A stretch of DNA of 64,000 nt, taken from positions 1 to 64,000 of the forward strand of contig LCFW01000005.1 of assembly GCA_000999315.1 (NCBI GenBank). Direction: 5' to 3'. A model generated the notes under the pieces. That model did not search any database and had not been told where the DNA came from. It saw only the letters and a list, made by a program, of their open reading frames with translations. Within the stretch, counting starts at the first letter, position 1, and each line of letters begins with the position of its first letter. The translations under genes and the position numbers were made by a program. Below, piece after piece: positions 30,144 to 32,582 of this stretch. This DNA is from Candidatus Peregrinibacteria bacterium GW2011_GWF2_43_17. Its GTDB lineage: Bacteria > Patescibacteriota > Gracilibacteria > UBA1369 > UBA12470.

Positions 30144-31349
30144 TTAACCTCCGTAGATAAAAATATCAGAAATTGTCCCGTCAAAATCCTTTTCATCCTG
30201 GCCTGCATCCGCACATACATTATCTCTTCCAATGACTAATGGCTTTGTAGCATTGCTTGAACTTATTTTACCACTTACCGACTGTGAACCACATTTTTGC
30301 CAATCAACATACATAGCGATTTCACTTCCAGTATAAACAAAGACTACCAGTTGCAATGATCCATCAACAGAACAAGAACCTGATGTAACTGAGTACTTAG
30401 TATCATCGACAGAAATAACACCTTCATATTTCCCATCTTCAATTTTCAACATATATAACGGTTGACCACATTGATCAGTTTGTTTGGCAATAATAGCTTG
30501 CTGATCTCCTGTATTCAATGCGTCAACCTCCGTAGTTACATGAACTACCAACCAATTCTCTGGATTAAACTGAGACTCATCATTAAATCTGATGTAAGTA
30601 TCCGAGCCGCTAAAATCGAATAAACCTATCTCTGGACTTATAATAACATCAACTGAAACTCCTGAAATATCATCGGCTACGGCTTTATAAATAGAATCCT
30701 CTGTTAAAGATGAAAGCCTTCCACTACTGAGCTTGCTGTAATCATGTAAAGTGAAAATTGCTTCTAATGTATGATCATAATTATCATTATCATTATAATT
30801 ATAATTTGATAATATGGGCCAGCTCCCATCCGTTTGATTATCATAATTTCCACCAATTATAACCGGGACCGTACAAGTATTCGTACCACCGCTATTTGTT
30901 GTAACCGTAAGAGTTGCTTCATACTCTCCTGCATCCGAATAAGTATTATAATCAATAGTCCTGGATGAAGAACCCGTATTCCCATCACCAAAATTCCATG
31001 CATAAGTTGCAATATCGCCACTGGTTTCGGAAGCATCAAATTTTAATTGACTATCTTCAAAACCAACATAAACATCTTCTCCATTATTATCAAAATTACT
31101 ACCACAATCCACACTTAGACTTGTCTTTGTGGTTGAACTTGTAGCCGGAGAAGAAGTTTTCGTATTTTTGCTAGAAGTTGTGCTTGTAGTCGATCCGGTA
31201 ACCGATTTCAAAGCTCCAAAGAAATTCGAAGTCGTTCCAAATACAATTGCAACGATGAGCAAAGTCGCGGCAATCCCTCCCAATATCCATTTTCTTTTGG
31301 ACTTATTAGGGTGGTCAGATGAGATGTCCGGGATTTTTGTTTGCGCCAT
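30144..31349 (-). CDS. membrane-anchored surface protein with PKD domain and LamG/concanavalin-like region
   Basis: N-terminal TM (RKWILGGIAATLLIVAIVFG), Ser/Thr-rich linker, PKD motif TYAWNFGDG, LamG-like C-terminus. Confidence 0.75.
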   Translation of the reverse strand: MAQTKIPDISSDHPNKSKRKWILGGIAATLLIVAIVFGTTSNFFGALKSVTGSTTSTTSSKNTKTSSPATSSTTKTSLSVDCGSNFDNNGEDVYVGFEDSQLKFDASETSGDIATYAWNFGDGNTGSSSRTIDYNTYSDAGEYEATLTVTTNSGGTNTCTVPVIIGGNYDNQTDGSWPILSNYNYNDNDNYDHTLEAIFTLHDYSKLSSGRLSSLTEDSIYKAVADDISGVSVDVIISPEIGLFDFSGSDTYIRFNDESQFNPENWLVVHVTTEVDALNTGDQQAIIAKQTDQCGQPLYMLKIEDGKYEGVISVDDTKYSVTSGSCSVDGSLQLVVFVYTGSEIAMYVDWQKCGSQSVSGKISSSNATKPLVIGRDNVCADAGQDEKDFDGTISDIFIYGG

Positions 31350-31377: not shown

Positions 31378-31407
31378 ATTATAACATGAACGCCCCCCCC
31401 CGCGCAA
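31378..31407 (-). promoter_or_regulatory. promoter with a G9 homopolymer in the -35/-10 spacer (candidate phase-variable promoter)
   Basis: Minus strand TTGCGC-GGGGGGGGG-CGTTCATGT-TATAAT: 18-nt spacer, -10 at 31378-31383, C9 at 31393-31401. Confidence 0.55.
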
Positions 31408-31425
31408 GCCCCGGGCCTGACAATA

Positions 31426-31722
31426 TTATTTAACTCTGAACGTCTCTTTGTTTGCTTCTTGAAGAATTTTGATTGTTGCGCCAACCGAAAGATTGTCGCT
31501 CTTTAAAAGCACCAATCTGTTATTAAGCTGGCTAAGTAACGGCGTTAAAAATTCATCAGCCCATGATGGCGACAACGTTAATACTCCGGAAAAATCCATC
31601 TCCAACTCTTCATTTTTAGGAAAGTCGCGCAAGGTTGACTGAAAAGCCTTAAATGCCTCTCTCCCCAATTCGCGTGAAATCAATGTTTTGCCGAATTTTT
31701 CAAGTTGCAATTTCATATACAT
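31426..31722 (-). CDS. STAS-like (DUF4325-type) protein
   Basis: ELEMDFSGVLTLSPSWADEFLTPL pattern, ~98 aa. Confidence 0.7.
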   Translation of the reverse strand: MYMKLQLEKFGKTLISRELGREAFKAFQSTLRDFPKNEELEMDFSGVLTLSPSWADEFLTPLLSQLNNRLVLLKSDNLSVGATIKILQEANKETFRVK

Positions 31723-31740
31723 TTTTCTCTTTAAAAGATA

Positions 31741-32460
31741 TTAAAATTCTATTTTCGCCAGACATCCTCGTACAACACGTTGGCCACGTGTGACACGAAA
31801 TACTTTATCTTGCCCTTTCATGCGTACCTCGGCGTCACCGCTGGTAAAAAACAAATCAATTGGCCGATCGGCAACGACCTCGCGAACAAGCTTAAGTCCA
31901 TTACCACGCTTTTCCGGCGCACGTCCGGAAACAAATTCCGTAAATGCCACTTTTACCGCCTCCACGTGATTTGAAAGTTTCGGCCGAGCCTGCCTTAATG
32001 TTGCCAAAACACCCAACCCTCTATCGGCAAGGACAATGATTCGCTTTTCAAGATCATACCCGAAAAAGATTCCCGCAGTATCCGGCCATTTTCCCAAATT
32101 ATGGGCGAATGAATTATCGCCGATTTCTCCGGTAATTAAAACAATCAAAGAATATAATTCTTCAAACCCCGGTTTCCGTATTAGGATATCCTGCATTTTG
32201 GTCAGCCTTGCGTTAAAAATTGAACTTGTCGGGCAATAGAATGTACCCGGGAACTCAATTCCGTCTTGAATCCATTCCGAAGCGAACTTCATTAAATCGC
32301 TGGCAAATATTTCTAAATCATTTTCGCGGTAATAACGATGGGTCCCGCCTCCTTTTTTGATCGCAACCAATTTACCGTTTTCATCCCAGCGACGAAGCGT
32401 ATTCAAAGAAACGCCCAGATATTCTGCGGCTTGACCAATTGTAAGCAGTTTTTCTTCCAT
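31741..32460 (-). CDS. MerR-type HTH fused to a GHKL/HATPase domain
   Basis: N-terminal LTIGQAAEYLGVSLNTLRRWDENGKL; C-terminal EIGDNSFAHN (N box), LADRGLGV (G1), GNGLKLV (G2). Confidence 0.82.
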   Translation of the reverse strand: MEEKLLTIGQAAEYLGVSLNTLRRWDENGKLVAIKKGGGTHRYYRENDLEIFASDLMKFASEWIQDGIEFPGTFYCPTSSIFNARLTKMQDILIRKPGFEELYSLIVLITGEIGDNSFAHNLGKWPDTAGIFFGYDLEKRIIVLADRGLGVLATLRQARPKLSNHVEAVKVAFTEFVSGRAPEKRGNGLKLVREVVADRPIDLFFTSGDAEVRMKGQDKVFRVTRGQRVVRGCLAKIEF

Positions 32461-32582
32461 GCTTTCATGATATCATATCGTCCAAACCTACACAACTATC
32501 CATCAAATCTACCCAAAAATATGGCAATCTACTCGTTGACCGTCTGTAGCTCCTCACTTGAACGCTTTCAATATTAAAGAAA

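Follow-up and report, generated by a model that had tools for sequence, protein, structure and literature searches.

Based on sequence comparison and structure prediction, we propose a model for a two-gene cassette of Patescibacteria in which a kinase would double as the DNA-bound regulator of its own promoter. The genes, here called A and B, lie on the minus strand at 31741..32460 and 31426..31722 of the window, by which we mean the whole analysed stretch of 64,000 nucleotides, taken from the 1.2 Mb genome of Candidatus Peregrinibacteria bacterium GW2011_GWF2_43_17. We consider it probable, though well short of assured, that A is an anti-sigma-type serine kinase and a repressor bound at the A–B promoter, that B is its STAS substrate and antagonist, and that the pair works by a mechanism homologous to that of CapK/CapS. 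The BldC-like helix-turn-helix (HTH) of A would occupy three direct repeats over the -35 element and repress the promoter, and its GHKL domain would be bound by B. The phosphorylation state of Ser53 of B would decide whether B stays bound and, through this, how firmly A holds the operator; a signal altering the ATP or kinase state of A would relieve repression, and the levels of both proteins would rise. The sequences themselves support the pairing of the two genes, the completeness of the kinase site, the conservation of the acceptor serine and the match between HTH and operator; repression, phosphotransfer from A to B and any influence of B on DNA binding are what we infer beyond them.

Domain architecture of the kinase and its STAS-like partner

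The 239-residue product of gene A joins a BldC/MerR-type HTH (residues 1-53; 32302..32460, minus strand) through a linker to a GHKL ATPase/kinase domain (residues ~79-239; 31744..32226, minus strand), the former placed by Pfam match and BldC alignment, the latter by homologue alignment, an AlphaFold2 model and profile comparison with CapK. The reading frames agree in position with a preliminary description of this DNA, which had read A as a MerR-type HTH fused to a GHKL domain with N, G1 and G2 boxes and without an evident histidine phosphoacceptor domain. The HTH is MerR-type both by Pfam (HTH_17, E 2e-11, and MerR_1, E 3e-10, on residues 5-52) and by alignment with BldC. In the A protein of the window itself, no HATPase domain is recognised by Pfam. 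The GHKL domain is nonetheless real, because its motifs are invariant, divergent A homologues weakly match HATPase_c_2, and the predicted structure has the fold. The motifs comprise an N box (E112/N116/H120), a G1 box (D146xG148xG150) and a G2 box (R185-G186-N187-G188-L189), of which E112/N116, D146/G148/G150 and N187/G188/L189 are unchanged throughout an alignment of 30 A homologues. The model (pLDDT 85) resembles the ATPase folds of Hsp90/TRAP1 and gyrase, as well as BldC, so that both folds expected for A were recovered by structure prediction. Residues 54-78 are the sole stretch between HTH and GHKL and join the two directly; neither Pfam nor the model places a DHp/HisKA phosphoacceptor there, and we ruled out a sensor histidine kinase on this ground.

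Gene B follows after a gap of 18 bp and encodes 98 residues. Its DUF4325 match (PF14213; E 5e-4, 20.2 bits) falls under the Pfam gathering cut-off of 23. The predicted structure of B (pLDDT 96) is STAS-like, its best STAS match being a moderate one (4xs5; prob 0.97, TM 0.65, E 0.12), which upholds the earlier view of an adjacent STAS-like gene. By Pfam and the model B consists of the STAS domain only and carries no HTH. Ser53 (codon 31564-31566, minus strand), set in the motif P-S-W-x-D-E-F, is constant in 41/41 aligned B sequences.

Which residues would carry out phosphotransfer? Searched against PDB sequences, the B profile found VapS (E 0.06) and CapS (E 0.6) as its best relevant matches, each weak. 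Direct profile comparison with hhalign places S53 of B on S54 of CapS (E 5.8e-6) and N116 of A on N218 of CapK (E 4.5e-5); CapS numbering was checked against a 182-aa CapS recorded from a plasmid and against the V. cholerae S58A chain. The position of B that matches VapS Ser48 (by alignment) and SpoIIAA Ser58 (by eye) is Pro or Ser, and the phospho-acceptor in B could differ, since the conserved serine sits one residue past it.

An alternative that we think unlikely is that the pair does not signal by phosphorylation at all: ATP binding by the GHKL domain would set the oligomerisation of the HTH, and B would be structural. It draws on a single 342-aa chain elsewhere in the same genome (L088:3923-4951; G000:C12), in which an N-terminal winged-HTH-looking region is followed by GHKL and a STAS-like DUF4325 domain. 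This protein resembles A–B in layout; it differs in being one chain and in its N-terminal region, which is not MerR-like and has no significant Pfam HTH match. In its STAS-like domain the place of the conserved Ser of B is taken by Ala, and phosphorylation is therefore not general to the wider group. Against a purely ATP-gated regulator stand the invariance of Ser53 of B and its coincidence with Ser54 of CapS, together with the invariance of E112 and N116, which are needed for phosphotransfer. The genome also encodes two SpoIIE-type (PP2C) phosphatases (L086 and L087; G000:C11 and C2), unlinked to the cassette, which could be candidates for dephosphorylating, and thus resetting, B.

Predicted operator and promoter, and a one-residue recognition code

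Comparison with the DNA of relatives revealed an operator of three direct repeats before gene A (32485..32534, minus strand): GAGTAGATT (32526-32534), GGGTAGATT (32506-32514) and GTGTAGGTT (32485-32493). The repeats, of the form GNRTAGNTT, lie at -74, -54 and -33 from the ATG of A, at spacings of 20 and 21 bp. The third overlaps the -35 element of a predicted promoter (32467..32495, minus strand; TTGTGT - 17 bp - TATCAT, with a TG extension), which was assigned from consensus and conserved aligned positions only and was not flagged by a stricter promoter scan. Its -10 element ends 6 nt before the ATG, and the transcript would be leaderless or nearly so. DNA similarity between the window and its relatives begins about 75-95 bp upstream of A and, in most close relatives, stops at B.

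A link between the protein and this DNA lies in the recognition helix. Residue 20 of A (N20 in the window; codon 32401-32403, minus strand) foretells repeat bases 2-3 in 71/76 loci: Asn goes with NG (23/24 loci), Asp with CA (34/38), and Met or Gln with TA (14/14). A repeat pair is present at 78 loci, these 76 and two more with Ala or Ser at this residue; in the five exceptions the arrays are mixed or divergent. Over 73 unambiguous loci the normalised mutual information with bases 2-3 is 1.00 for residue 20 vs 0.51 for the runner-up column, and shared ancestry alone therefore does not explain the code. When the HTH is left out of tree building, the residue-20 class changes at least 16 times on the best tree, and in close pairs (77-93% identical) protein residue and repeats switch jointly; counted over strongly supported branches only, each class retains 3-4 independent contrasts, a number at which a sign test could not reach significance. 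A held-out set of seven new loci, too small for a proper check, contained two with repeat pairs (CA; CC/CA), both with Asp at residue 20 and neither contradicting the code. For repeat base 7 no protein column stands out as specifying it. N20 and R24 of A align with Lys26 and Arg30 of BldC, which touch bases in the BldC–DNA complex (PMC5859096).

The repeat array occurs only before A in its own genome. Scanning 36 genomes revealed no array of matching type away from A, and off-site matches were about as frequent as those of a reversed-pattern control; the strict pattern gave no array in about 22/36 of these genomes, so that the scan does not cover the operators of divergent members. Within that scope other genomic targets of A were rejected. 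Upstream conservation, the repeats, their agreement with residue 20 and the confinement of the array to this site together argue that A almost certainly binds its own promoter. From the overlap with the -35 it probably represses it. Activation is also possible for MerR-like regulators, which counts against the assignment of A as a repressor. The direct control of transcription suggested earlier is strongly indicated by sequence for the cassette's own promoter; the link to the neighbouring PKD/LamG gene is not supported.

In its predicted mode of binding A resembles BldC in part. BldC has a MerR-like winged HTH that recognises direct repeats, as predicted for A; it is a free-standing protein of 68 aa acting on contiguous 9-bp repeats, whereas A is fused to a kinase and its repeats lie 20-21 bp apart. 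Classical MerR regulators have a dimerisation coiled coil and bind a palindrome between -35 and -10 elements set apart by a long spacer, none of which is found for A, whose predicted promoter combines direct repeats, a 17-bp spacer and a last repeat on the -35.

Neighbouring genes

The next co-directional gene (30144-31349, minus strand) encodes a protein with PKD and Laminin_G_3 domains in Pfam, as had been described. We rejected its proposed link to the cassette: relatives have unrelated neighbours, and the gene is not conserved beside the pair, which makes it a chance neighbour. The genes after the cassette share no common family, and most are ordinary or housekeeping; restriction-modification accounts for 3/72 and RadC for 2/72. 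No PIN-domain family is found among the downstream gene families listed, the neighbour in the window being the PKD/LamG gene. The cassette has no fixed cargo.

Could the cargo instead differ from genome to genome, with A–B controlling whatever follows by read-through or de-repression in the manner of CapK/CapS? The varied immune operons that follow CapK/CapS (PMC13373217), the few restriction-modification and RadC genes above, and a co-directional next gene in 76/94 loci might be read in this way. That last proportion (81% vs a background of 73%, p = 0.13) is not above background, the downstream genes are of mostly ordinary kinds, shared downstream families are absent, and no second such operator exists elsewhere in the genome. 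We rejected cargo control on these grounds and regard it as very improbable.

A run of nine G residues (31393-31401, minus strand) lies inside the spacer, 18 bp long, of a candidate promoter before the PKD/LamG gene (TATAAT, 31378-31383, with a weak -35, TTGCGC, matching 3/6 positions, at 31402-31407); a tract of this kind could make expression of that gene phase-variable.

Conservation and spread of the cassette

Judged from its named relatives, the A family belongs to Patescibacteria, and full-length A occurs in 36/380 genomes of the phylum, its own included. In all of the first 30 loci A is followed by B, and among 104 distinct loci B is present at every one whose contig continues, one B being partly masked; apparent B-less loci were artefacts, due to the spelling of the motif, to masking of bases or to the end of a contig. 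Conservation of the gene order in relatives, on which the preliminary description had staked its reading, is therefore far beyond chance.

Different candidate phyla share proteins of the cassette at 82-88% identity amid unrelated flanks, which indicates horizontal spread. Two genomes hold two full cassettes each (L092 and L143; L099 and L141), with differing repeat types in both. A phage origin was rejected (a single match in 2.9 million viral contigs), as was membership of the MADS defence system, since the PADLOC mad1 match reflects only the HTH domain that the two have in common. One might see in this pattern a selfish, addiction- or toxin–antitoxin-like unit, autonomous, autoregulated and horizontally spread, whose operator types diverge so that copies can coexist. 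The 82-88% identity across candidate phyla, differing operator types in both two-copy genomes and patchy presence across the phylum would fit. A and B are unlike toxins, however, the near-absence from viral contigs speaks against it, and two such genomes are too few for a case of insulation; we judge this reading improbable.

Some A homologues have no HTH, one has a winged HTH and two have a different N-terminus, with the kinase kept throughout. The HTH-less forms, which branch mostly outside the MerR-HTH group, still keep A and B, and DNA binding is thus not the core job of the pair. The likely core is the kinase–STAS pair, to which the HTH would be an autoregulatory addition.

A serious competitor, which we give somewhat less than an even chance beside our preferred model, follows this line further: the HTH would merely steady the levels of A and B, and the output would be post-translational, with unphosphorylated or released B binding an unlinked target protein. 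SpoIIAA, which frees a sigma factor, offers one precedent. Another is VapS, which binds the VapC toxin, and the HTH of CapK is itself dispensable (PMC13373217). An operator confined to the cassette, the lack of conserved cargo and the retention of the pair by HTH-less homologues all accord with it. It would gain from a candidate target linked to the cassette, of which there is none, and B, at only ~95 aa, has little past the STAS fold, whereas VapS needs a C-terminal tail.

Relationship to known kinase–STAS systems

The preliminary description had announced a possible new switch module. This said too much, since GHKL kinases that carry an HTH and act on a STAS substrate were reported in 2026, in a paper on CapK/CapS and VapK/VapS (Chambers et al., EMBO J; PMC13373217). 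In the bacterial stress switch CapK/CapS, ssDNA activates the kinase CapK, which then phosphorylates CapS, a STAS-wHTH repressor, on Ser54; the two sit ahead of varied immune operons (PMC13373217). The likeness to A–B is threefold: the gene of an HTH-bearing GHKL kinase directly precedes that of a STAS protein; the catalytic Asn and acceptor Ser align and are invariant in A and B; and the promoter is self-regulating, for A–B as predicted from sequence. CapK, however, is HTH-STAS-GHKL with Trp68 for ssDNA, whereas A is HTH-GHKL and, having no STAS domain, also lacks the presumed ssDNA-binding place. CapS carries a C-terminal wHTH and represses at palindromes, B carries none, and the DNA-binding role thus falls on the substrate there and on the kinase, for direct repeats, here. 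Nor do A–B precede an immune operon. Since A is without STAS and B without a DNA-binding domain, the pair appears from its sequence to be a relative of CapK/CapS in mechanism but not a member.

With VapK/VapS/VapC the cassette shares a GHKL kinase and a small, HTH-less STAS protein; VapK lacks an HTH and includes a STAS domain, A the reverse, and the VapC toxin gene that follows VapK/VapS has no counterpart after A–B. The parallel to SpoIIAB/SpoIIAA drawn earlier was borne out, and extends to RsbW/RsbV, in the Ser-kinase GHKL N box (ExxxN..H), the STAS partner and the complementary gene pair. Those systems target a sigma factor, A instead bearing its own HTH, and SpoIIAA/RsbV read D-S-S/T-G where B reads P/S-S-W. 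What is new, as far as our searches reach, is the layout and the operator code.

What are the implications of such an arrangement? Few signalling systems are understood in Patescibacteria, and A–B is a compact regulatory pair with parts simple enough to be studied in E. coli. The shift of the DNA-binding role from substrate, as in CapS, to kinase may shed light on why CapK has an HTH, and the one-residue code is a natural data set on the joint change of HTH specificity and operators. We speculate, with no great confidence, that the cassette is portable: its kinase would be the DNA-bound regulator, its STAS substrate the switch ligand and its own operator the only one in the genome, and its HTH/operator types (N/NG, D/CA, M or Q/TA) would change fast, in the manner of immunity groups, insulating copies as they move between Patescibacteria.

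The same genome holds a second kinase–STAS pair (L089:4117-5360; G000:C6, about 50.1-51.4 kb), in which a 319-aa HATPase_c_2 protein, its N-terminal region of another kind, precedes a 95-aa DUF4325 protein; it is similar to VapK/VapS, and no VapC lies beside it. Two distant kinases (L077:11-889 and L078:9114-9920) that branch outside all others have A-type GHKL motifs but an N-terminal domain of a different type, possibly STAS-like; they may link the A family to VapK.
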